DNA of 64,000 nt, taken from contig NC_019942.1 in assembly GCF_000327505.1 (NCBI RefSeq), positions 1-64,000 of the forward strand, read 5' to 3'. Both the position numbers and the translations under genes were made by a program. This DNA comes from Aciduliprofundum sp. MAR08-339 (GTDB lineage Archaea > Thermoplasmatota > Thermoplasmata > Thermoplasmatales > Aciduliprofundaceae). Under the pieces are notes generated by a model. It was not told the DNA's origin and ran no database searches. It saw only the letters and a list, made by a program, of their open reading frames with translations. Position 1 is the first letter of the stretch. Every line of letters starts with the position of its first letter. This document shows positions 9,588 to 54,190 of this stretch, in pieces.

Positions 9588-12500
9588 TTACTCTTTCTCC
9601 TTTTTCACTGCGATTACCTTCTTTATTATCTTCTTCCTCACCACTGGCTTTTCTTCCTTCTTCTCCTTTTTCTCTAATTCTTTCTCTTCCTTCTTACCAG
9701 TCTCCGTATCTCCGGCCTTCTTTTCCTCTTCTTTCTCCCTCTTTTCCACCTGTTTTCTCTTGGCCCACTCTTCAACTGTAACCACACCTGGTCTCTTAAG
9801 CCTTTCAAGTTCTTCCTTGGGTATCACTGGCGTTTCTTTCTTACCTTCTTCCCTCTTCTCCTCATGCTCCTTTTCCTCAAATACCGGAAGAGGTGAGCCG
9901 CAAACTCTGCAAATCTTTGCACCCTTTGGATTCAAAGATCCGCATATCGGACATCTCACTGTAGCTCCCTCAATTTTCTCCTCCTGCCTCTTCACCCATT
10001 CAAGGAAGGATATGAACTCGGGGTGAGTCTTCCACCACTTAAAGAACTCCTCCGTGGTGAACTTTTCACCTATATACTTCTTCGCCTCTTCCTTGTACTT
10101 GTCAATGTACTTCTCATAGTTCTCTTTCAATTTTTCATACTTCTTGAACTCTGGATCCTCGGGTGGCATGAATATTGTACCGCAAACTGGACAGAACTTG
10201 GCATCTTCATCAATCCAAGAGCCACACTCTGGACACTTGACTTTCTCCTTCTCAAACACCACACCACAGTATGGGCACTTTTCAGAATCCGCAGGTATGA
10301 GATGCCCGCAATTGCCACAGACCATGTATTCTGGAGCTTCCCTCTTGAATGAGATGTAACCGTAGAGGAAGAAACCCGCTATTGCTGCCACAATCACTAT
10401 TATTATGATCCAAAGCCAAGGTAAAGTGAATGGTTTCTTTTCCACGTTTATGGCCATTCCAGAAGGTGTGTACTTCTCCACATAGCCCTGGTAGGTCAGC
10501 TGCAGCTGAGGATTGTAAGTTCCGGGAGCGGTTGCCTTAATGTGGAATATTGCCAAACCATAGGCATTGGTTGTCTGGGTGTATGTACCCAATCCACCAG
10601 TCAGAATTAGCTGAACCTTCACCCCCTTCATATATATTGTTTTGCCCTGAGATTCAGTGGCATTCATATTTATTATCTTCACCACAACAACCAGGGTGTC
10701 TCCGACATAAACCTTTGTATTGTGCTCAAGAGAATAACTTGTAACTATGATCTTCAAACTTGGCATAATGACATTGAGCTTCTTGACTGCCACATCGTCC
10801 CCATAGATGCTCTCTTGAACTGTACCATTTGGATTTACCTTCACCTCAATATTATGGGTCCCAAGAGAGGTTACTGTGTAATTGTAAAATATAACCTTGT
10901 AATTTCCAGGAGCAAGGATTCCTGCCTTGCCCCATATCAATGGCTTACCGTTGTCCAAAATAACATAGTCGAGTGCTCCAGGTAGGCCTCCATAATTCCT
11001 AACAATGAAATGAATGCCTATTTTCACACCCTCCGCCACTGTGGAAACCTGCCTTTCACCTTGGGTTATGAGGAGTGATGATAGCACAAAATTGGTTTTT
11101 TCCTTTATCACAAATTCCTTGCCGGGATGCACATACTTGGCATTTCCGGTGATATCAGAAGTGATATTTATCTGATAGACCACATTGATTGATGCCTTCC
11201 CTTTAAGATATCTCTGGTAGAAGGTTTTTTGGATTAGAAATGCTACCGTAACAGGAGTATTTGCCTTAAGATTTACTGGATTCTTCGGAGTTATGGGATT
11301 AAGAGCCATGTTCCAATCTGGAATGTAGAGTACAAGTGATGCATTTGCATCAACATTGCTTGTCACAGTAACATTCACCACTATATTTGTACCATTCACA
11401 TATTCATTGCCGGCACTTATAGATAAAGTGAAAGGTTCAGCATACACTGTGAATACCTTGCTCATTACATTGTTTGAGGACACATAATCTCCAGGAGCAA
11501 CTACCTTCACTTCAACCCTGTAATCCCCAACCATGTTGGGAACAAACGACAACGCATACGTTGATGGATAGGCAAAAGTCTTATTTTGAACCAGAGTCCC
11601 TAGAGGGTCGTAAATATTTATGTAAACCATTGCCGATGATGGGGCTTCCTTTCCTAAATTAACAATGCTAGCCTGAATGCTTAAAGTTTCCCCTATGTAA
11701 ACCTGATTGGGAGTAATGCTCAGAGAGGAAACTGCAAGATCAATATCTCTCTTGACATTTATGGAAAAGCTGCCGAGAAACACTCCGTTGCTGAGATAGA
11801 GCAAAAGGGTGTGTGGGCCTGCTGAAACATTATCAGATATGTACCATCCAAAGGAAATTTCTGTAAGTCCTTTATTTATATTTGTTACTGTGCTATTTAC
11901 AACCACAGTTCTATTGTCCAGATACAGATATATGCCCACGTTATTCCAAGAATACTCAGAATTCAAGGTGACGTTTACCCATATGCTACTATACCTCACT
12001 GGAGTACCAACACTCCAAGCACTCACCCATATGCTCCCCACATTTATCAATACACTTCCCCTGTTATTGCTCAAATTGTAATCCCATTCCTGCACTACAT
12101 CAATGCTTATGTTGTAACCACCATTCGTCGGAAATTCGCTCCCATTTATCTCCCACTCGTACTCCTTGCTCTCCTGTCCCCCTATCGTCCCCACATCGTA
12201 TACCTTGTACAAATTCCCATTGATGTACACATATACCTCTACCCCATCTGCCTCGTCCTTACCATAATTCTCTACACTCACCCTTATACTCTCACTCCTT
12301 CCTGGTACATAGGGACTGGCACTCACTACATCCACACTCTTTACTCCTATGTCTACATCCCTCTTTATCTCTATCCTGTATACCCCTATCTCTACCCCGT
12401 TATCCATGTAAACCCTTATGTAATGTGTCCCTGGTGCCACTGCCCCACTTATGTACCATTCAAAACTCATAAACGTATTCCCGGACCTTATGTTAACCTC

Positions 12501-14750
12501 GCTCTCATTCAGTAAATTGCTCTCATTGTCTAAGTACACATAGATCTTTACTCCGCTCCAGTAATATACCGAACTTATTGTGTAGTTTATCCACACATCA
12601 TGGTACCTTATGGCTTCCCCTATCTGCCAAGCACTCACCCATATGCTCCCCACATTTATCACTACACTTCCCCTGTTATTGCTCAAATTGTAATCCCATT
12701 CCTGCACTACATCAACACTTATGTTGTAACTACCATTCGTCGGAAATTCGCTCCCATTTATCTCCCACTCGTACTCCTTGCTCTCCTGTCCCCCTATCGT
12801 CCCTACATCGTATACCTTGTACAAATTCCCATTGATGTACACATATACCTCTACCCCATCTGCCTCGTCCTTACCATAATTCTCTACACTCACCCTTATA
12901 CTCTCACTCCTTCCTGGTACATAGGGACTGGCACTCACTACATCCACACTCTTTACTCCTATGTCTACATCTTTATACTTATCCAAAGTGATATTCTCAA
13001 TGCAAGTATTATTTGAAACAAGTAGCCATGGATAATACCCAAGCCCTATCTGAGCATGATAAAACTCCTTAGTAGAATTTTTTATGGACAGTTGATAAAC
13101 ACCAACAAACTTGCTATTTGGCTCTTCAGTTTGATTTATTATATCAGAAAGAAGCGGCAAGTATACTCTGCCATTCACAGTTTTATCATATATCACATTA
13201 CCAGATATACGAACATCACCAAGTTTCATCAATGGAATCAACGCAGTATTTTCAACATATGTTCTCATAACACCCATCATCTCAGAAATCAACTGAGAAT
13301 TATCACTGAAATCAACAGGATATGGTGTGGCAGAAACATTAAGACCATCTAGGGAAATATTCCTAAAATAAACCTTCGTAAGACTGTATCTTAATATGTA
13401 AGCTTCCGAGTTTGAATCGTTCATTAAAAACGCTGTATCATACCGTGGAGATTTTCCAGTATCGTTTATGGTGAGATTCAAAGCATACATTCTAGAGGCT
13501 CCAGTAAAATAGAACATGTTATGGGAAACACCCAAATCAGCCCTTGGAGAATAATCAACATCCACATACACATCTCTCAGATAAAGCGTGGAACCAATTA
13601 CATTAAATGAGAACTTTTTTATACCGTATTTCAAAAGATTCTTCTCAATTTCAATTCCAAACGAAACTTTAGAAATTGTCACTGTCTTATTCTTTGAATT
13701 TGTAACATAAACTCTTATATCCCCACTGCTTAATTTCTCGTAAAACTGGTTCGGAGTCCACCCATACTCCATCAATAGAATATTGGCATTCAATATTCCA
13801 GACGCACCATTGCTCAAAGCTTGAATTGTCATGTTCAAAAGTTGTTTGTTCTCGTATTCAATTATAAAGTTTGATGATGAATCATACCCAGTTGCATTTG
13901 AATAATCCACCCTAACAGCAACGTTCTTCAAAACAACATAACTCCAATACCAAGAATACAGCTTACTCTCTTGAAAATTATCAATCACCGCCCCAGAAGA
14001 TGAAGAAATGGTATAACCAGTAGTGTCGTTGATCCATCCAATGTTTCCACTTCCTCCAGTCTGATTTTTAAATAAATTCCTGAACTGCGTATTTCCGATG
14101 TAAACCTTTGAATTGTAAAAATAAGGAGTAGGGCCATAGGAAGGGGGCGCAGGATAATCTGTTGGGCTTGAGGACATCTTGGCAAATGTGGTGTTATAGA
14201 TCACCACGTTACCATTTTTATTGGTCACGTTGAACCACCCTGGAAAGAGTAACCTACTGTTTATTATTTCAACTTTGGAGTAACTTGGACCACTTATAGT
14301 GAATTTGAATGGGAAATATGGTTCCACCAGTCCATGAGCTATCGTGAATGTAACATTGTAAAAATAAAGTCCCCCATTCACAGTTAAAGAATATCTGTGA
14401 TTCACATCGGAGAGAAAATAAAGAGTAGCATTTTCCACAATAAGCTTTCCTGTTGAAGTAACAACCACATTTGCATCAAATCCATACTTACCCTTCTGCC
14501 CGGTTAAAGGATCCACCGTTGTTTGATTTATAATATATGTTCCAGATATGTACACAGTATTTGAAACCGTTGAAGATATCGCTCTGGTTTCGTACCTATC
14601 GCTTATAACTTTAACCACATTAGTATCCTTTGTGGACAAACCTTGGTGCTCTTGAGATGAGTTCCAACCTGAAGATATATTCACAAGATATCCAAATCCC
14701 CCTAACACCATTATTATAATTACCAAAACGCTTACAATCGTTCTTTTCAT
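9588..14750 (-). CDS. Giant cell-surface protein with CARDB-like repeats and cytoplasmic zinc ribbons
   Basis: A 1720-residue membrane-anchored protein. Residues 1-28 form a signal or anchor segment (KRTIVSVLVIIIMVLGGFGY). Residues ~50-560 look like beta-helix or beta-rich sequence with many Asn-linked glycosylation sites. At least four CARDB-like beta-sandwich modules follow (near 590-700, 800-910, 1000-1100 and 1220-1330); the first two are nearly identical. A transmembrane helix at about 1440-1468 is followed by a cytoplasmic tail of some 250 residues with three CxxC-CxxC zinc ribbons (CGNCG/CPYCG, CPECG/CPVCG, CPICG/CRVCG) and a Lys/Glu-rich end. The start has a strong AAGGAGGTG 5 nt upstream and a TATA-like box near 14801-14810. 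Likely a cell-envelope protein with an intracellular binding domain; the ligand is unknown. Confidence 0.85.
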   Translation of the reverse strand: MKRTIVSVLVIIIMVLGGFGYLVNISSGWNSSQEHQGLSTKDTNVVKVISDRYETRAISSTVSNTVYISGTYIINQTTVDPLTGQKGKYGFDANVVVTSTGKLIVENATLYFLSDVNHRYSLTVNGGLYFYNVTFTIAHGLVEPYFPFKFTISGPSYSKVEIINSRLLFPGWFNVTNKNGNVVIYNTTFAKMSSSPTDYPAPPSYGPTPYFYNSKVYIGNTQFRNLFKNQTGGSGNIGWINDTTGYTISSSSGAVIDNFQESKLYSWYWSYVVLKNVAVRVDYSNATGYDSSSNFIIEYENKQLLNMTIQALSNGASGILNANILLMEYGWTPNQFYEKLSSGDIRVYVTNSKNKTVTISKVSFGIEIEKNLLKYGIKKFSFNVIGSTLYLRDVYVDVDYSPRADLGVSHNMFYFTGASRMYALNLTINDTGKSPRYDTAFLMNDSNSEAYILRYSLTKVYFRNISLDGLNVSATPYPVDFSDNSQLISEMMGVMRTYVENTALIPLMKLGDVRISGNVIYDKTVNGRVYLPLLSDIINQTEEPNSKFVGVYQLSIKNSTKEFYHAQIGLGYYPWLLVSNNTCIENITLDKYKDVDIGVKSVDVVSASPYVPGRSESIRVSVENYGKDEADGVEVYVYINGNLYKVYDVGTIGGQESKEYEWEINGSEFPTNGSYNISVDVVQEWDYNLSNNRGSVVINVGSIWVSAWQIGEAIRYHDVWINYTISSVYYWSGVKIYVYLDNESNLLNESEVNIRSGNTFMSFEWYISGAVAPGTHYIRVYMDNGVEIGVYRIEIKRDVDIGVKSVDVVSASPYVPGRSESIRVSVENYGKDEADGVEVYVYINGNLYKVYDVGTIGGQESKEYEWEINGSEFPTNGGYNISIDVVQEWDYNLSNNRGSVLINVGSIWVSAWSVGTPVRYSSIWVNVTLNSEYSWNNVGIYLYLDNRTVVVNSTVTNINKGLTEISFGWYISDNVSAGPHTLLLYLSNGVFLGSFSINVKRDIDLAVSSLSITPNQVYIGETLSIQASIVNLGKEAPSSAMVYINIYDPLGTLVQNKTFAYPSTYALSFVPNMVGDYRVEVKVVAPGDYVSSNNVMSKVFTVYAEPFTLSISAGNEYVNGTNIVVNVTVTSNVDANASLVLYIPDWNMALNPITPKNPVNLKANTPVTVAFLIQKTFYQRYLKGKASINVVYQINITSDITGNAKYVHPGKEFVIKEKTNFVLSSLLITQGERQVSTVAEGVKIGIHFIVRNYGGLPGALDYVILDNGKPLIWGKAGILAPGNYKVIFYNYTVTSLGTHNIEVKVNPNGTVQESIYGDDVAVKKLNVIMPSLKIIVTSYSLEHNTKVYVGDTLVVVVKIINMNATESQGKTIYMKGVKVQLILTGGLGTYTQTTNAYGLAIFHIKATAPGTYNPQLQLTYQGYVEKYTPSGMAINVEKKPFTLPWLWIIIIVIVAAIAGFFLYGYISFKREAPEYMVCGNCGHLIPADSEKCPYCGVVFEKEKVKCPECGSWIDEDAKFCPVCGTIFMPPEDPEFKKYEKLKENYEKYIDKYKEEAKKYIGEKFTTEEFFKWWKTHPEFISFLEWVKRQEEKIEGATVRCPICGSLNPKGAKICRVCGSPLPVFEEKEHEEKREEGKKETPVIPKEELERLKRPGVVTVEEWAKRKQVEKREKEEEKKAGDTETGKKEEKELEKKEKKEEKPVVRKKIIKKVIAVKKEKE
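12015..12359. repeat. Intragenic near-identical 345-bp repeat, copy A
   Basis: Encodes residues 798-912 of the giant surface protein. I count about five mismatches against copy B over 345 bp; the spacing is exactly 612 bp (204 codons), so the reading frame is kept. Most differences are single changes such as TCAATA versus TCACTA near the start. Sequence outside the block diverges at once. Confidence 0.93.
12627..12971. repeat. Intragenic near-identical 345-bp repeat, copy B
   Basis: Encodes residues 594-708 of the giant surface protein and matches copy A almost perfectly, including synonymous positions. This points to a recent duplication or gene conversion of one CARDB-like module rather than selection on protein sequence alone. 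Confidence 0.93.
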
Positions 14751-14985: not shown

Positions 14986-15026
14986 GGCCAATCACACGCA
15001 CTCCGGCATAATGGACTGGAAGGTAG
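14986..15026 (+). other. 5' arm of the pre-23S processing stem
   Basis: GGCCAATCACACGCACTCC (14986-15004) and GGACTGGAAGGTAG (15013-15026) pair with the 3' arm downstream of 23S. Between them GCAT (15006-15009) and the bulge AAT form half of a bulge-helix-bulge motif, the substrate of the archaeal splicing endonuclease. Each long helix contains one G-U wobble. Confidence 0.88.
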
Positions 15027-17955
<2,929 letters not shown>

Positions 17956-17996
17956 CTACCTTCCGGTCCATGCTAAAGGAGTGTGTGTGATTGGCC
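17956..17996 (+). other. 3' arm of the pre-23S processing stem
   Basis: CTACCTTCCGGTCC (17956-17969) and GGAGTGTGTGTGATTGGCC (17978-17996) are complementary to the 5' arm. The central ATGC (17970-17973) pairs with GCAT of the 5' arm and is followed by the bulge TAA(A). The geometry of a 4-bp helix between two 3-nt bulges is the classic cut site that releases and circularises archaeal pre-rRNA. Confidence 0.88.
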
Positions 17997-27090: not shown

Positions 27091-27116
27091 AAAAAAGAGG
27101 GAAAAATTACTCCCTC
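27091..27116 (-). terminator. Intrinsic-type terminator of the RND/MMPL gene
   Basis: On the minus strand GAGGGA (27116-27111) pairs with TCCCTC (27102-27097), and six T residues follow. The gene's TAA stop lies inside the loop, an economical arrangement repeated at the Alba gene. Confidence 0.65.
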
Positions 27117-30100
27117 GATTCTCTCCACTTGGCCCACATGTACAGGAAAGTGGGCAGGATGAACACGGATAGTATGAAACTGTAAAGAATGGACAGCGTG
27201 GAAATCTCACCGAACTGCTGTATTGGGGGCATGGAAGAGAGTGTAAGCGTGCCAAATCCAGCCATTGTGGTGGCTGCCGCTCCAAATATGGATGTACCCG
27301 TATGCCTGACCGTTTTCTTTATGGCATCTTCTATGCTCTTTTCCCTTTCCCAATCCTCAAGGAACCTGTGGGTTATGTGTATGGCATAAGTGATTCCCAG
27401 TCCTATGGTCAGAGATGTAACAGTTACAGTTACAACATTGAAATTTATTCCAAGGAGATACATGGTTCCAAGAAGCCAGAGAAGGGCAAGCATTACCGGT
27501 AGAGAGGTTATAAGTCCAAGGATCAAACTCCTCCTTTCATAGAAGAACACTATGGTCAGAACTATCAGAGAGGCAATCAGAGTTATCACAAGGGAGTTCC
27601 ATTCTGTTCCCTGAAGCATATCCAATATGTGGAAGGTGAGAATATTTGTGCCAGTCAGAGTTGCTTTCAGTCCTGCATTTCTCAATGGCTCTATATCCTT
27701 CTCAATTTCCTTGGTAAGGATCCTGTTTGCCTCCTGGGTACTCGCAGTGCTCCTGATCACGATTATCATGGAGCTGTATGTACCGTTGCTCTTGTGGAGA
27801 ATGGCCCTTCCATCGGCATGGTCGTATAGCCAGTCATATATACCAACCACATTCTTATCCGGCAGACCATCTCCATTCGTATCATTCTGGCTCACCATAC
27901 TTGCGAATGTTGCATTTCTCTCCTCCCACTGAGAAATGAGGGTAGTTATACTGGAACACTGTGAATAATCCACGTATTCATCATCCTTCAGACTCTCCAT
28001 CGTCTGTTTAACCGCTTCAAGGGCTTTAGGTGTAGCCACATTTCCCTCTATGAGAATGTAGTTATCGTTCATTCCAGATGTGTTGAAATTATTCATCATG
28101 AAATTTATCGTATCTGTAATCTCCAGATTCTGAGGAAGGAAATCCTTTAGATCAAATGTGGTACCAACGTTCATACCCCCATATACCGCCGCCCCTGTGA
28201 TTAGAAGCACTGCGGCTATAACCCCGTATCTGTGATGCTCTGCAGCCACAGCACTTAGAGCCATGAACTTGTTGAGCACTATGAGTCCAGAGCCTTCTCT
28301 TTCCTTTTCCCTTTTTATCTTCAACTTGCCCTTTTTCTCCCTGTGACCGTCTATAAGGATTTTCACAGCAGGTATAGCAGTCGTGAATATGATGAATGCC
28401 CCAAATATACCAACAGCGTTCATAACTCCAAAGTCCTGCACGGGAGGAATGGGCGAGGAAACGTTGGATAGAAATGCGATTATCGTGGTTATTGTGGCAA
28501 GTATGAGCCCCATGCCAAGATGGGTTATCATTTCCTTCATCGCATCACGTACATTTCTACCCTTTCTCAACTCCTCCCTGTAGCGCAGTATGGTGTGAAT
28601 TGCATAATCTATACCCAGACCAACAAGCAGAACGGCCACCGTTGTGCTTATCTGATTGAAATTGTATCCCGCGAGAACCCCGTATCCATAGGCCCACGAA
28701 ATTGCCATGCCCAACCCAAGCAATCCAAGAAGGGTATCCACAATGCTTCTGAAGGTTATAAGCAGGATAATAACCACAAGAATCATCGAGACAGGAAGCA
28801 AAACGTTCATCGTCTCGTTTGCCGTTTTCTCTGTGGCCTTGGATATGAGGTAGGATCCAAGGACCATAACCCTGCTCTCGATCTTGGAATTCCTTGCAAT
28901 TGTGCTAACCCTCTCTTCCAGAGATTCCATCCTCTGGCTGTGCTGCTTATCCGTTTCTCCAGGCAGGTATGTTTCATTGAGCATGACGATCATCATTGCC
29001 GCTCTGGCAGAATAACCATTGAAATCCTTGGAAAACATACTCTTCAACTCCCCCGAGAACTGGTGCATCATGTAGGTGAATCCAGAGATGTGGGGGAGAT
29101 ACCCAGCCATGTATTTCAATCCAGAAGATGCGTTGGATATATTTCCATACATACTTCTGTATAATACCAAACTCCTGCTCACATTCTCATTTTTCGTTGT
29201 TCTGTAAACAAACTCTATTGAATCCACAATATTCCTTAGAACACTTCCCACCCTTCCCATCTCGGAGGTAACATTGTTTATAACGGGTAGGGTCTGATTC
29301 AGGGTTGATGTGAGTTCGGTGGAATTGTAGTTCTCAATATTTTTCAAGGTTCCTATTATCTCCTTCTGGCTCATGTTCTCAAGCATTTTTTTCTTATCCG
29401 CAGCACTCGGATTCAGCTTCGGAATCTTAATGGCAGGGGAGGATGGCATGCTTGGCATTTTATCAAATTCTCCACCCATATTGGCCATACCCATTATTGT
29501 GAGATACATACTTTGAATCTTGTACTTGTAAACATCCGCCACGGAGGACATGAATGCATCTTTCAGTGCGTAGAACACATCAAATCCCCCAGAGCCAGAG
29601 GTGTGGGGCTGGTTCATCATTCGAATCGTATAAGCGAATATGTTCAGGGCATTTTCTCCCACACGTGAATTGTGCATAACATAATCAAGGTCCCCGATCA
29701 TCTGGGAGAACCACTTTGGATAGGGCTCATTCATGGCGGAGATTATCTCCTGCAACTTATCCCTCTGAGCCTCAAGTCCCTGATTCATACCTTTAAGGTA
29801 CCCGGATAGGGTATCTATATGCGCCGTAGTATTAGCCACAGTATCATGATTTATCTCCATTCTTATGCCTGCGAGAGAATTCTGGAGCATAACCATGGCA
29901 TCGTAATTTCTAATAAAATTCTGAACGATCTGCAATGTTGAGTTGGCCTCGTATGCAACATCGTAGAAGAGGTAGTTGCTATTGAGCCATTGGGTGAATG
30001 TTGAGTTGAATATTTCCATCATATTTTTCAGATCACCCTGGGAGACGGATAGCATTGCCGAGATATTCTCCTTCACACCAAGGATATCCTGGGGAGTTAG

Positions 30101-31180
30101 AGTGCCCATCTCCATATCATACAGAAACTTTGACACTGATTCATTATAAGCCCTATAATATGGGAGAACACGCCCCATCTCGTTGAGATTTGAGGATACT
30201 CCCTGTATGGTCTGATTCATTATTTTAAGTGCTGTGAAGTTATCCCCGTTCATTACATACATTTTCACTGCTGCAAGAGCATTTATGAGTTGTGAATTTC
30301 CATTAATCGCAGAGTTCACCGAGGACAGGGAATACTGCAGGGATATGGATGTGAACTCGTTGCTCAGAGAGAAGTAATGAACTGCAACAGCCTTGTCATC
30401 ATAACTCATATTTGACTCTATATTCTTCACAAAATATCCAAACAGGGGATTCTCCATGCTCGAAGTGGCAGAGGAGGTCCCACCCTGTGGAGGGGTTACT
30501 ATTGTCAGAACCTTGGCTTTTATCTCAAAATTCTCACCATTTACAAGCACCGCTGTTATGTTCTGAAGTAAGGGTTCAATATCAACCATTTCTGAGCCAT
30601 TGTGCTCAGAGGGCATATTGAAAAGCATAAGCACTATGGTCTGGGCATCGCTTCTTATTAATGAGGCATTGTTGTATATGTTCTCATAATCAGCCAGAAC
30701 GGAGTTCATAGCATTCAGAGGCATGAGCATCAGAGTGAAATTCAAATCATCCATGGTTGCGGTAAAATTTTTAAGCATTGAAATCAGGGATTTCTCAAAT
30801 CCAAGAGTTATATTGCCCATAACAATTATATCTGCAGGAGAAACTATGCTATTTCCGGGATTATCTGGAGTTTTCAAATTCTTCAAAATCACACTGTCAT
30901 TTTCGAGATTTGCCTCAACAGTCAGCATATCTTCCAGAGTTGATTTTGAAAGAGTATTATTGGACACAAATACAACCTGCACAATATCAGTATCCCCAAA
31001 TTCATCACTTATCTTCTCCTGAGCACGCACCATTTCATCGTTCGGCAGAAATGTCTGCATATCGGCACTCATTTGCATCTGCGCCGCATAGAACCCGAAA
31101 ACTGCAGTAATCAGGAGGATAACAATGAGCACCGTGACCGGCTTCCTGCTCACAATATTTCCCAGACCTCTCAGATCCAT
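27107..31180 (-). CDS. RND/MMPL-family transporter (HAE3-like) with two sterol-sensing-like domains
   Basis: A 1357-residue export protein of the RND superfamily. Residues 10-30 are the first transmembrane helix. An exceptionally long extracellular region (about 35-730) is rich in helices and Asn/Met. Next come a five-helix SSD-type block with GLGIDYAIH and a second such block near the C-terminus with GLGITYAIH. The Asp of the proton relay is present in the first and replaced by Thr in the second. Typical HAE3 proteins are shorter, so the extra domain is notable. The ATG was chosen over an upstream TTG as the normal family start. It likely exports or extracts lipids or amphiphiles from the membrane; the substrate is unknown. 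It is divergent from a regulator gene. Confidence 0.87.
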   Translation of the reverse strand: MDLRGLGNIVSRKPVTVLIVILLITAVFGFYAAQMQMSADMQTFLPNDEMVRAQEKISDEFGDTDIVQVVFVSNNTLSKSTLEDMLTVEANLENDSVILKNLKTPDNPGNSIVSPADIIVMGNITLGFEKSLISMLKNFTATMDDLNFTLMLMPLNAMNSVLADYENIYNNASLIRSDAQTIVLMLFNMPSEHNGSEMVDIEPLLQNITAVLVNGENFEIKAKVLTIVTPPQGGTSSATSSMENPLFGYFVKNIESNMSYDDKAVAVHYFSLSNEFTSISLQYSLSSVNSAINGNSQLINALAAVKMYVMNGDNFTALKIMNQTIQGVSSNLNEMGRVLPYYRAYNESVSKFLYDMEMGTLTPQDILGVKENISAMLSVSQGDLKNMMEIFNSTFTQWLNSNYLFYDVAYEANSTLQIVQNFIRNYDAMVMLQNSLAGIRMEINHDTVANTTAHIDTLSGYLKGMNQGLEAQRDKLQEIISAMNEPYPKWFSQMIGDLDYVMHNSRVGENALNIFAYTIRMMNQPHTSGSGGFDVFYALKDAFMSSVADVYKYKIQSMYLTIMGMANMGGEFDKMPSMPSSPAIKIPKLNPSAADKKKMLENMSQKEIIGTLKNIENYNSTELTSTLNQTLPVINNVTSEMGRVGSVLRNIVDSIEFVYRTTKNENVSRSLVLYRSMYGNISNASSGLKYMAGYLPHISGFTYMMHQFSGELKSMFSKDFNGYSARAAMMIVMLNETYLPGETDKQHSQRMESLEERVSTIARNSKIESRVMVLGSYLISKATEKTANETMNVLLPVSMILVVIILLITFRSIVDTLLGLLGLGMAISWAYGYGVLAGYNFNQISTTVAVLLVGLGIDYAIHTILRYREELRKGRNVRDAMKEMITHLGMGLILATITTIIAFLSNVSSPIPPVQDFGVMNAVGIFGAFIIFTTAIPAVKILIDGHREKKGKLKIKREKEREGSGLIVLNKFMALSAVAAEHHRYGVIAAVLLITGAAVYGGMNVGTTFDLKDFLPQNLEITDTINFMMNNFNTSGMNDNYILIEGNVATPKALEAVKQTMESLKDDEYVDYSQCSSITTLISQWEERNATFASMVSQNDTNGDGLPDKNVVGIYDWLYDHADGRAILHKSNGTYSSMIIVIRSTASTQEANRILTKEIEKDIEPLRNAGLKATLTGTNILTFHILDMLQGTEWNSLVITLIASLIVLTIVFFYERRSLILGLITSLPVMLALLWLLGTMYLLGINFNVVTVTVTSLTIGLGITYAIHITHRFLEDWEREKSIEDAIKKTVRHTGTSIFGAAATTMAGFGTLTLSSMPPIQQFGEISTLSILYSFILSVFILPTFLYMWAKWRESRE

Positions 31181-31322
31181 AACCACCACCAATGGAGCAT
31201 GGGTAGGCGATATTTAAATTTTTGCTATTTTTCCATATTTTTTATCAAAATTATCAATTATTATAAGTTATTTTTTGAATTTTTTGGAAATTTTTAAATA
31301 TGGGCTCTCCATTATGGTTTTG

Positions 31323-50530: not shown

Positions 50531-50576
50531 ATAATCACTGCACAAAACTTAAATAATCCTCAAAGATAGAAAATTG

Positions 50577-51284
50577 ATGAGAATTAGAACAGGCGTGCCC
50601 GGATTTGATGAACTTGTTCAGGGAGGGTTGGTCTCCCAGAGAGTTTATATTGTTGCTGGTCCACCTGGCTCGGGCAAAACAACATTCGGAGTACAGTTTC
50701 TGATTCAGGGGGCAAGGGAGGGAGAGAGGGGACTCTACGTGACCCTAACAGAGGATCCACACAGCATAATTGAGGATCTTTCCACATTCCGATTTAATCT
50801 GAGAAGATATACCATTAGTGGTATGATCTTCTTTGCAGATATGGGACCATTGAGCATACAGTACCTAGGTGCTGTTAAATCCCCAGAGAGCATAAGGGAG
50901 ACCTATGCCCAGGAGGTTTTCAAGAGGATTAACTCCATAGTAAAGGCAAAGGGTATAAAAAGACTGGTAATAGATTCTGTGCTCACCTTGAAATATGGCG
51001 GAGGAGACAGGGAGGAGCAAAACAAGGAAATTGCCAGATTTTTCAGAAGTTTGAAAGATCTAAAAATCACGGTTCTCATACTTTCTGAGATGACTGATCT
51101 AACCAACTACAGCCCAGAGCACTATATGGCCCACGGTGTCATATTCCTACACAATTTTCTAAACGGGCACACCATGACGCGAGCATTGCAAGTTATAAAG
51201 ATGCGCGGCACGATGCATGATTGTGATATGCACAAGATGGAAATAACTCCCGATGGGATAAAGGTATACTCTTCGAAGGTGTGA
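50577..51284 (+). CDS. KaiC/RAD55-like ATPase
   Basis: A 235-residue RecA-fold ATPase. Start MRIRTGVPGFDELVQGGL is typical; Walker A GPPGSGKT is at 28-35 and RLVIDSVLTL fills Walker B. The ATG lies about 27 nt after CTTAAATAA (leaderless). The C-terminal part ends with DGIKVYSSKV. It is co-transcribed with the next gene (Zn-ribbon, CheC-like) after a 3-nt gap. Possibly a signalling ATPase linked to motility given its location, but nothing in the sequence proves it. Confidence 0.84.
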   Translation: MRIRTGVPGFDELVQGGLVSQRVYIVAGPPGSGKTTFGVQFLIQGAREGERGLYVTLTEDPHSIIEDLSTFRFNLRRYTISGMIFFADMGPLSIQYLGAVKSPESIRETYAQEVFKRINSIVKAKGIKRLVIDSVLTLKYGGGDREEQNKEIARFFRSLKDLKITVLILSEMTDLTNYSPEHYMAHGVIFLHNFLNGHTMTRALQVIKMRGTMHDCDMHKMEITPDGIKVYSSKV

Positions 51285-51287
51285 AAA

Positions 51288-51956
51288 ATGGTTATCTGTC
51301 CAATTTGCGGCTCAAGGGATGTGACGAAACTCAAAACTGGCAGTTACAGGTGCAATTCCTGCGGCTTTGTGTTCTATCCCACAAGAGAGGCAATTATAGA
51401 TATGAGGGACCTGCTAACAGCAGAGCAACTCACGGAAGAAGAGATCAAAGAACTTGGTAAGAAAATGGAGAAAAGCACAACATCAGTAGGTGAGGCTATT
51501 TTTGGGGAGAAATTAAACAACGTGTTTAGGAGTTTAAATTCTCTAGATGAAATCTTGGCACAGTACAATGAGGATGACAGGGTATTCGGCATTTTTGTGG
51601 ATTTTGTGGGAAACATAAGGGGTACCTTCTTAATAATGGTCCACGAGAATAGCGTTGAAATAATAAAGAAGGCCTACGGTAAGGAGAGCGTTGTAGAGGC
51701 TCTGAAAATATTTGGCACAAGCATTGCAAGCAAGTTCAAGGATAACTTCAGAGATTACCTTGAAATTGAGAAAATAGATATCGCCTACGACACAATACTT
51801 TCAATGATAAATTACCTAATTTCAGACATTGCGGGAGATAGGGAGGTCATGTTCCTCAATGTGAAAATGCAGACAGAGCAAACTCCCAGGGGAGAGATAA
51901 TCTTCGTGCCTCAAAAAGATAGCATAAAGTATTTAAAAAGGTTTCTTAACGAATGA
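51288..51956 (+). CDS. Zinc-ribbon protein with CheC-like domain
   Basis: A 222-residue protein. N-terminal zinc ribbon: CPICGSRDV and CNSCGF (residues 4-26). After a helical linker, residues ~85-222 have the layout of CheC/FliY-type domains (strand-helix units with GNIRGTFLIMV, EALKIFGTSIASKF, SMINYLISDI), but the usual E-x-x-N phosphatase residues are missing. It follows the KaiC-like gene after 3 nt with GGTG upstream. The CheC relation is pattern-based and tentative. Its 3' end overlaps a small gene on the other strand. Confidence 0.6.
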   Translation: MVICPICGSRDVTKLKTGSYRCNSCGFVFYPTREAIIDMRDLLTAEQLTEEEIKELGKKMEKSTTSVGEAIFGEKLNNVFRSLNSLDEILAQYNEDDRVFGIFVDFVGNIRGTFLIMVHENSVEIIKKAYGKESVVEALKIFGTSIASKFKDNFRDYLEIEKIDIAYDTILSMINYLISDIAGDREVMFLNVKMQTEQTPRGEIIFVPQKDSIKYLKRFLNE

Positions 51957-52114: not shown

Positions 52115-52474
52115 TCAAAATTGATTACGTCTCCTGAGAAACCTTGGCAAATCCATAAATTGCATTCTCAACTCGTACCTGCGAATTAACCTTATTGTAT
52201 TTCTCTCGACCCTGATACTTGGCTGTTCCATCGGCTTTTCCTTACCCTCTGTGATCTCATAACTTCTTTTTCTCCTACCCTCATCCTTTCCCCTTTTGTA
52301 GACCTTCTCAATTTCTTTTTCTATACCCTCCGCTCTTGCCAACTGCTCAATTTTACGCAGTTCTTTCTTCACCCAGCCAACTGCCTCATCATGAGAGTAG
52401 TAACCAACCTCGTAGCCAAGCACGTATGCGCGCTTGATCAGATTGTATTTTTTCTTTGTCTTATTGGAGCTCAT
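52115..52474 (-). CDS. Basic helical protein downstream of the archaellin gene
   Basis: A 119-residue, strongly basic protein (MSSNKTKKKYNLIKRAYVLG, later RKRSYEITEGKEKPMEQ and RLIRRYELRMQFM). The middle is amphipathic helix. Not recognised. The ATG (GAGGT 7 nt upstream) starts 9 nt after the archaellin stop, so both lie on one transcript. It could be an archaellum-associated regulatory or chaperone protein; nucleic acid binding is equally possible. Confidence 0.6.
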   Translation of the reverse strand: MSSNKTKKKYNLIKRAYVLGYEVGYYSHDEAVGWVKKELRKIEQLARAEGIEKEIEKVYKRGKDEGRRKRSYEITEGKEKPMEQPSIRVERNTIRLIRRYELRMQFMDLPRFLRRRNQF

Positions 52475-52483
52475 TGGCATACC

Positions 52484-54103
52484 TCAGTATATCTCCACAT
52501 ATCTATTTAACATTACTGGCGGAATCTCAATCACTGTGTATATGGGAATTCCAGGACCCGGAATTATCTTCATCGTGAGTTTCGTCTGAGGTGTCAAGGT
52601 CAATCCCACATCCCTTGCGTTAATGTACATTATTATTATGGCTCCATCTTCAAGAATGTAACTCTGCCTGAACTCTCCGGAGGGGTCATTCACGACCTGC
52701 ACTCCATAAAGGGTTGCATTGGCGGCCTCAACACCAAATCCAGAGGAATTCAGTTTCAAAGATGCTTCCACATTTCCATCGGTAAGTTCCACAATAACAT
52801 TGTTGAAGTCAACTGGCTTAGAACCAGGTCCAAGTGCAAGTTTTATCTCCAGCACCTGAATTGAGCTCTGAGGTACTATTATCTGCCCGTAATTGGATGC
52901 GTTATCCACAGCAACAACCAGATAATAGTAGGTCTGATAAGGCATATACACATAGTCGTTGAAATAGGTACCCTTCACAAAGGCATAGGGCTTGCTGTTG
53001 AACACCTGCGTTGTTGCCACAGCCAGATAATTTGTGGAACGATATATGTAATAGCCCTTTATACCACTCTGATTATCCCGAACCGGTTTCCATTCAAGAT
53101 GGATGTAGTACTGAGAAGTATACGCCCGAAGACCCTCCACTGAGGGAGGAGAAGTATTATCCACCCTTGTAACAGTTATGCTATTCGTTGTGGCCGAGTA
53201 CAAGGCACTGTTTCCTGCCCTATCATAACCTACAATGGCATAATACCAAGTTCCATTGGCTGGTGGATAGTCAATGTAACTCCTCACATCAGGACCCACC
53301 GTGGCAACCAAAGTGGCATTCTCCACATTAGCCGCTGTGATTTCACTTCTGGAACGGTAAATTTTTTGATAGTCCAGACCACTTCCGCTATCACTCGCGG
53401 TCCATGTTATCATCACCCCATATCCAGATGGGGTTATGGTTTCTATGTTGCCTGTGGGTGCCGTGGTATCAGGAGTGCCGGTTCCTGTGTAAACAGTTTG
53501 ATTCAACGCAGTATAAAGAACGCTGTTACCTGCCCTATCGTATCCAATTATTGCATAGCCATAGTAAGTGCTGGAATTCACACCGTAATCCACATATGTT
53601 CTATCATCTCCAAACCCGGAGGTAAAGGTCGCCACAAGGGTTCCAACACTCTTTATGTAATTCTCATCCTTTAAAATGAACTTTATGGTGGAGGGCGCTC
53701 CAGAAATTCTGTAAAGCTCCTCTTTCCACATACCGCTCTCAGTGTCAACGGCAGAATTCCACACAATTTTCACCGACAGCGGATCCGTGCTGTTTACCGT
53801 TACATTCAGAATCAAACCACCATAGGGAGGAGTGTAATCCCTCTGAATTGGCGCCTTGACATTCACCACAGAGGGATCCTTTCCATCAATATCCCTATCT
53901 CCCAAAATATTCAGGATTCTAACGGAACTGGTTATTTGAGAGGTTACATCCGATGCCACCTTCTCACCCTGCTCCCTCAAAGTCACACCTACATATATTA
54001 TGAGGGATGCTGCGATGGCGGCCACTATGATCATCGCAATGAACAGTATTAGGGTTGCAATTCCTATATCACCCTCTTCCTTCCTTGTGTACAGCCTCTT
54101 CAT
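52484..54103 (-). CDS. Archaellin-like protein with inserted FN3 domains
   Basis: A 539-residue filament-type protein. The N-terminus MKRLYTRKEEG followed by DIGIATLILFIAMIIVAAIA has the class III signal and hydrophobic helix of archaellins, with cleavage expected after Gly11; residues 42-70 continue the D0 helix (EQGEKVASDVTSQITSSVRIL). The C-terminal ~120 residues (from LALGPGSKPVDFNNVIVELTDG to the end) fit the archaellin beta-sandwich with the ending PGIPIYTVIEIPPVML. Between them three FN3-like modules (YDRAGNS repeats twice; WTASDSGSG; WKPVRDNQSG) are inserted. Typical archaellins are 200-270 residues. GGTGGTT lies before the ATG and TTTAAATAA further up. It could alternatively be a large pilin. 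Confidence 0.7.
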   Translation of the reverse strand: MKRLYTRKEEGDIGIATLILFIAMIIVAAIAASLIIYVGVTLREQGEKVASDVTSQITSSVRILNILGDRDIDGKDPSVVNVKAPIQRDYTPPYGGLILNVTVNSTDPLSVKIVWNSAVDTESGMWKEELYRISGAPSTIKFILKDENYIKSVGTLVATFTSGFGDDRTYVDYGVNSSTYYGYAIIGYDRAGNSVLYTALNQTVYTGTGTPDTTAPTGNIETITPSGYGVMITWTASDSGSGLDYQKIYRSRSEITAANVENATLVATVGPDVRSYIDYPPANGTWYYAIVGYDRAGNSALYSATTNSITVTRVDNTSPPSVEGLRAYTSQYYIHLEWKPVRDNQSGIKGYYIYRSTNYLAVATTQVFNSKPYAFVKGTYFNDYVYMPYQTYYYLVVAVDNASNYGQIIVPQSSIQVLEIKLALGPGSKPVDFNNVIVELTDGNVEASLKLNSSGFGVEAANATLYGVQVVNDPSGEFRQSYILEDGAIIIMYINARDVGLTLTPQTKLTMKIIPGPGIPIYTVIEIPPVMLNRYVEIY

Positions 54104-54122: not shown

Positions 54123-54190
54123 TCTTATTTAAATAATTACGTGTGATTATCATTTCGTAAAATCACTTAAGAAACGGTAAATTTTAATGC
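54123..54190. promoter_or_regulatory. Divergent promoter region of archaellin and glyoxylate reductase
   Basis: Contains the archaellin TATA (ATTTAAATAA, near 54128-54135) on the minus strand, a plus-strand TATA-like AAATTTTAAT (54180-54188) for the dehydrogenase, and between them the inverted repeat GTGATT (54143-54148) / AATCAC (54161-54166). The repeat is positioned to act as an operator for either gene. Confidence 0.45.

Follow-up and report, generated by a model that had tools for sequence, protein, structure and literature searches.

A stretch of 64,000 nucleotides (hereafter, the window) from Aciduliprofundum sp. MAR08-339 (NC_019942.1, positions 1–64,000) was analyzed, with a focus on the open reading frame (ORF) at 52484–54103 on the minus strand. 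This ORF begins with ATG, encodes a protein of 539 amino acids and is an archaellin that carries three tandem fibronectin type III (FN3) domains in the loop between strands b1 and b2 of its head (hereafter, FN3-archaellin). Residues 1–73 comprise a class III signal peptide, the filament helix and strand b1. The predicted signal peptide, of the type found in archaellins and type IV pilins (residues 1–11, MKRLYTRKEEG ahead of DIGIATL; 54071–54103, minus strand), was placed by alignment to plain archaellins, and its position is kept in 15 family sequences. It is followed on the same strand by the filament core helix, or D0 (residues 12–58; 53930–54070), which was delimited by AlphaFold2 (AF2)/DSSP and family conservation, and by strand b1 of the head (residues 61–69; 53897–53923), which was delimited by AF2/DSSP and alignment to plain archaellins. 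The three inserted domains, also encoded on the minus strand, were defined by AF2, Foldseek and internal repeats: FN3-1 with a lead-in strand (residues ∼79–206; 53486–53869), FN3-2 (residues ∼212–313; 53165–53470; repeat of FN3-1) and FN3-3 (residues ∼314–411; 52871–53164; repeat of FN3-2). The remainder is the archaellin head, or D1, from strand b2 onward (residues 412–539; 52487–52870, minus strand), which aligned with 5o4u and 40 plain archaellins and matched 7ofq_B in Foldseek.

The archaellin core was readily recognized in sequence searches. PF01917 (Arch_flagellin) matched with an E-value of 6.8e-16 and 59.5 bits (curated cut-off 29.5), the best-matching part being residues 11–76. The top PDB match of phmmer was 5o4u, the Pyrococcus archaellum subunit, which aligned in two segments (residues 9–72 and 415–533; 1.1e-13 overall). 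The predicted processing site KEEG/DIGIATLILFIAMIIVAAIAA and the hydrophobic helix behind it lined up with 40 plain archaellins, which in the joint alignment covered residues 1–74 and ∼411–539 only. No Pfam FN3 model scored above threshold on FN3-archaellin in the profile search. The internal repeats were nonetheless clear, with FN3-1 aligning to FN3-2 (z 17.7) and FN3-2 to FN3-3 (z 7.8) better than in all 500 shuffles each, and FN3-1 to FN3-3 better than in 499 of 500; the motif YDRAGNS is present twice. Phage records gave no match. A chance ORF or a gene-fusion artefact could be ruled out, because the ORF is kept across several families.

Two AF2 models were made. With 12 close orthologues as input, the FN3 domains were well determined and the head reached a pLDDT of only 22–37; with orthologues plus 40 plain archaellins, the head was modelled as well (pLDDT ∼90 over residues 412–539). 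In the second model, with a mean pLDDT of 91.7, the helix spans residues 12–58, the first strand 61–69, the FN3 region 79–411 and the head strands 417–538. Foldseek matched the archaellin core to 7ofq_B (rmsd 1.7 Å over 153 columns) as well as to 5ya6, 8rh5 and 5z1l, and the FN3 part to the FN3 tandems of contactin, titin and LAR (E ∼1e-10); with the first model, a fibronectin tandem was also matched. Taken together, the modelled segments, the archaellum matches and the coverage by plain archaellins place the insert in the b1–b2 loop of the head. A preliminary description had read the ORF as an archaellin with inserted FN3-type repeats, and Pfam, a 58-sequence alignment, the AF2 model and Foldseek concur that such a protein is real. 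Its first and last segments were modelled as archaellin D0 and D1 around the FN3 domains, as that description had anticipated, in agreement with Foldseek. The FN3 repeats themselves stood, whereas their length had to be corrected from ∼320 to ∼335 residues, and the site had been misplaced between the helix and the beta-sandwich: it lies between strands b1 and b2, with b1 still joined to the helix. The type IV pilin and S-layer families that had been named as competing assignments did not prevail, since the best sequence matches were PF01917 and an NCBIfam flagellin model and the core structural matches were archaella.

The gene directly downstream, in the same direction, encodes a basic protein of 121 amino acids (52115–52480, minus strand) with the motif AYxLGYEVGYYxHxExxGWV; it had no Pfam match above the cut-off, and no database name was found for its family. 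Converging on this operon are a gene for a 222-amino-acid protein with an N-terminal zinc ribbon, assigned from sub-threshold matches (51288–51956, plus strand), and a gene for a KaiC-like ATPase (50574–51284, plus strand; PF06745, E=6.7e-56). Families are denoted below by the codes of our genome search, f1 being that of the window genome. In the f1 genera, the archaellin, 121-amino-acid, zinc-ribbon and KaiC-like genes remain together and the gene upstream of the archaellin varies by genus. Homologs of the 121-amino-acid protein lie beside FN3-archaellin in f1 and also in the f23 and f59 loci, and the closest f23 and f59 homologs of the KaiC-like protein are likewise those in the FN3-archaellin loci (45–46% identity over the full length, clearly above other KaiC paralogs). 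In the FN3-archaellin loci read in f8, neither a KaiC-like nor a 121-amino-acid homolog was found. Thus, both genes appear linked to FN3-archaellin in three families (f1, f23 and f59), in the sense of a conserved neighborhood only. Upstream of the archaellin gene, a conserved element, GTGATTTTACGAAATGATAATCAC (54143–54166, minus strand), has core letters that do not vary among 13 aligned sequences, in surroundings that have diverged, and no other match to it at two or fewer mismatches was found genome-wide. It is followed by a BRE/TATA-like sequence, TAATTATTTAAATAAG (54124–54139, minus strand), which is conserved in the same number of aligned sequences and has a putative promoter role. Such a promoter element of its own suggests, as far as sequence can tell, that FN3-archaellin may be made under separate control.

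Elsewhere in the window, we observed a protein of 1720 amino acids containing CARDB domains and, at its C terminus, several zinc ribbons (9588–14750), an archaeal 23S rRNA gene (15017–17965), which accounts for the GC-rich stretch of the window, and an MMPL/Patched-like transporter of 1361 amino acids (27107–31192).

The genome consists of one contig of 1.437 Mb and encodes four archaellins, including the FN3 form. Archaellin 1 (212 amino acids) heads an operon with arlF, arlG, arlH, arlI and arlJ, archaellin 2 (206 amino acids) lies 5′ of an arlCDE fusion, and archaellin 3 (289 amino acids) lies 5′ of an arlD/E-like gene. Both the arl operon and the plain archaellins that the preliminary description had proposed to look for are therefore present, and the FN3-archaellin gene stands apart from the operon in its own genome. 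The statement that archaellins normally lie within an arl cluster holds for FN3-archaellin in relatives, namely in families f8 and f23. Some further features of these loci should be mentioned. Archaellin 3 (L010:6600–7469), ∼290 amino acids long across the family, carries, as judged from its sequence, a different and smaller insert of ∼80 residues in the same b1–b2 loop. The ArlF protein of the arl operon (L008:12787–13857; 356 amino acids) has an ArlF-like N-terminal part of ∼110 residues and then a repeat-rich, beta-propeller-like extension; the gene at the ArlF place in f8 and f23 is likewise long (∼397 amino acids). The extended ArlF is possibly an adapted stator, judging by its sequence. 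In addition, two consecutive ArlI-like ATPase genes, judged by their sequence starts, occur in f8/f23 arl clusters (L058:11007–14492, L059:4574–8067, L061:10754–14241 and L065:12525–15986).

The occurrence of FN3-archaellin tracks the presence of the archaellum. Within f1, 15 of the 16 relatives with archaellins carry it, and the one that does not (G005) is an incomplete assembly; within f8, it occurs in each of the seven genomes with archaellins and in no genome among the 12 that lack them. Besides f1, four further families of Thermoplasmatota contain it: f8, where it lies within the arl cluster and is flanked by two plain archaellins; f23, where it is also within the arl cluster; f59, where it takes a 649-amino-acid form and the adjoining gene resembles arlD/E; and f58, where only a partial copy, lying at the end of a contig, was found. 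It was missing from the sampled genomes of the archaellated Thermoplasmatota families f6, f24, f29 and f32, and thus it is not a general part of the archaellum. FN3-archaellin is, then, a single-copy paralog held across a hot-vent archaeal group and some distant relatives.

Every full-length copy has three FN3 domains, and each genome has a single copy. Among 15 aligned f1 sequences, mean identity was 92% for the helix, 78% for the head and 61–65% for the FN3 parts. Asp and AGN loops are conserved in the FN3 triplet. The FN3 arm is hence the least conserved part of the protein, with moderate divergence and no hypervariable region, and the order of conservation (helix, head, FN3) is the pattern of an outward-facing insert. 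In a tree of the archaellin core (187 columns, FN3 columns excluded), all 18 FN3 forms fell on one side of a single branch (support 98/97). Repeated independent insertion of FN3 domains is unsupported by this single clade, although the tree has long branches in other parts and should be read with some care. The helix differs too. At positions 49–50, Thr-Gly is near-universal in plain archaellins (39/40 and 37/40), as a common feature of those compared and not a family-defining trait, whereas FN3-archaellin here has Val-Ala; the pair is missing in 17 of the 18 FN3 forms and retained in that of f59. Moreover, the helix has Tyr at position 37, where plain archaellins mostly have Gln, Ser, Asn or Thr. 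The single clade together with the loss of Thr-Gly indicates an old specialized paralog rather than a recent fusion.

On the basis of these results, we consider it reasonably probable that FN3-archaellin is a specialized archaellin that the Arl machinery places in the archaellum, with its arm outward and perhaps in a distinct segment, at the tip or as a sparse decoration. In such a scheme, the ArlK/PibD peptidase would cut the predicted signal peptide, ArlI and ArlJ (the assembly ATPase and platform) would set the helix in the archaellum core beside plain archaellins, and the FN3 arm would point outward from the filament. With less certainty, the protein might form a cell-proximal segment, a tip or a sparse decoration rather than the bulk of the filament, and its arm may contact the cell envelope, a surface or other cells. 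The three fixed domains, the single copy and the moderate divergence of the FN3 parts agree with a specialized structural segment, at the base or the tip, no less well than with adhesion, and the altered helix, along with the domain number and the single copy, tips the balance slightly toward such a segment. A more elaborate version is doubtful: FN3-archaellin, the KaiC-like ATPase and the 121-amino-acid protein might constitute a dedicated, separately regulated module, in which the KaiC-like protein, alongside or instead of ArlH, would direct FN3-archaellin to one filament end and so switch the archaellum between swimming and attachment.

The preliminary description had suggested that the inserted modules may decorate the filament, so that it could serve adhesion rather than plain swimming. 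Adhesion by the FN3 arm is possible; in this reading, FN3-archaellin would coat much of the filament or build a filament of its own, the FN3 domains would bind surfaces or other cells, and the archaellum would act as an adhesive fiber. The predicted adhesive AidA-like inserts of Halorubrum archaellins (PMC7349177) offer a precedent for such a fiber, with which the low conservation of the arm also agrees. By codon adaptation, a weak proxy with a narrow range in this genome, the FN3-archaellin gene ranks at the 89th percentile among the genes of the window and exceeds two of the plain archaellins, of which there are three. This gives no sign of a rare protein, but as a measure of abundance it scarcely bears on the choice between an adhesive coat and a minor subunit. 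PF00181 performed poorly as a ribosomal marker in these archaea. However, FN3 domains often act as spacers, and the invariable presence of three domains in full-length copies, the single copy per genome and the lack of a hypervariable region do not favor adhesion, so that we regard an adhesive fiber of this kind as possible but rather unlikely.

The altered helix could also mean that FN3-archaellin does not join the common lattice. Both the absence of Thr-Gly at positions 49–50 and the replacement of the usual residue at position 37 would suit a surface protein held in the membrane by an archaellin-type anchor without polymerizing. We find this improbable, as the entire D1 head is retained and 78% conserved, which a mere anchor would not need, and as in f8 and f23 the gene is placed within the arl cluster and in f8 vanishes with the archaellum. 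It is more improbable still that the protein is no archaellum subunit but a pilin belonging to a distinct type IV pilus system. Archaellins and type IV pilins have the signal peptide and helix in common, and the gene is away from the arl operon in its own genome, but the D1 head matches archaella in both sequence and structure, and the arl-cluster location in f8 and f23 and the arlD/E-like neighbor in f59 point to the archaellum.

Why archaea maintain several archaellins is an open question, on which the FN3 paralog bears; the roles of minor archaellins have been called enigmatic (PMC8821640). This paralog can be separated from bulk subunits by sequence, occurs in single copy and has one origin on the tree. 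Its large arm should be visible by electron microscopy, and its place in the filament is directly testable in cultured Aciduliprofundum. A hook-like archaellin has been described in Methanococcus, namely FlaB3 (PMC7349177, PMC8821640). FlaB3 and the FN3 form are alike in being specialized paralogs beside the main archaellins, and by this comparison it may be hypothesized that the FN3 form acts in a hook. To our knowledge, FlaB3 has no inserted FN3 domains.

The plain euryarchaeal archaellins (ArlB/FlaB; for example, 5o4u of P. furiosus and 7ofq of Methanocaldococcus villosus) share with the FN3 form the signal peptide, helix, strand b1 and head from b2 onward, whereas the FN3 form has ∼335 extra residues in the b1–b2 loop and a helix without Thr-Gly. 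A literature search, with most subscription papers outside it, found no paper combining archaellin and fibronectin type III. Within Thermoplasmatales, the barbed archaellin of Oxyplasma meridianum (8rh5) has a spike of 28 residues protruding within the head (PMC12448462); both are archaellins with a protruding extra part, which in the FN3 form amounts to three whole domains. Halorubrum FlaB2 variants of 332–418 amino acids have AidA-like or DUF4397 inserts, for which an adhesive role was proposed by the authors (PMC7349177); these are other domains of variable lengths, whereas the FN3 form stays constant from family to family and occurs in a single copy. The closest parallel in position comes from the long haloarchaeal-type archaellins 9v95 (454 amino acids) and 9v96/9xtb (463 amino acids), whose organism was inferred from similarity to Natrialba. 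By sequence alignment, 9v96, whose solved structure is a many-chain assembly, likewise has its b1–b2 loop interrupted by a large insert (b1 before residue ∼75 and b2 after residue ∼345), and the inserts of 9v95 and 9v96 have no clear sequence similarity to that of the FN3 form. The b1–b2 loop thus receives inserts in at least two groups of archaea that are distant from each other: archaellins with inserts at this site are already known in haloarchaea, and the version with three FN3 domains seems to be new.
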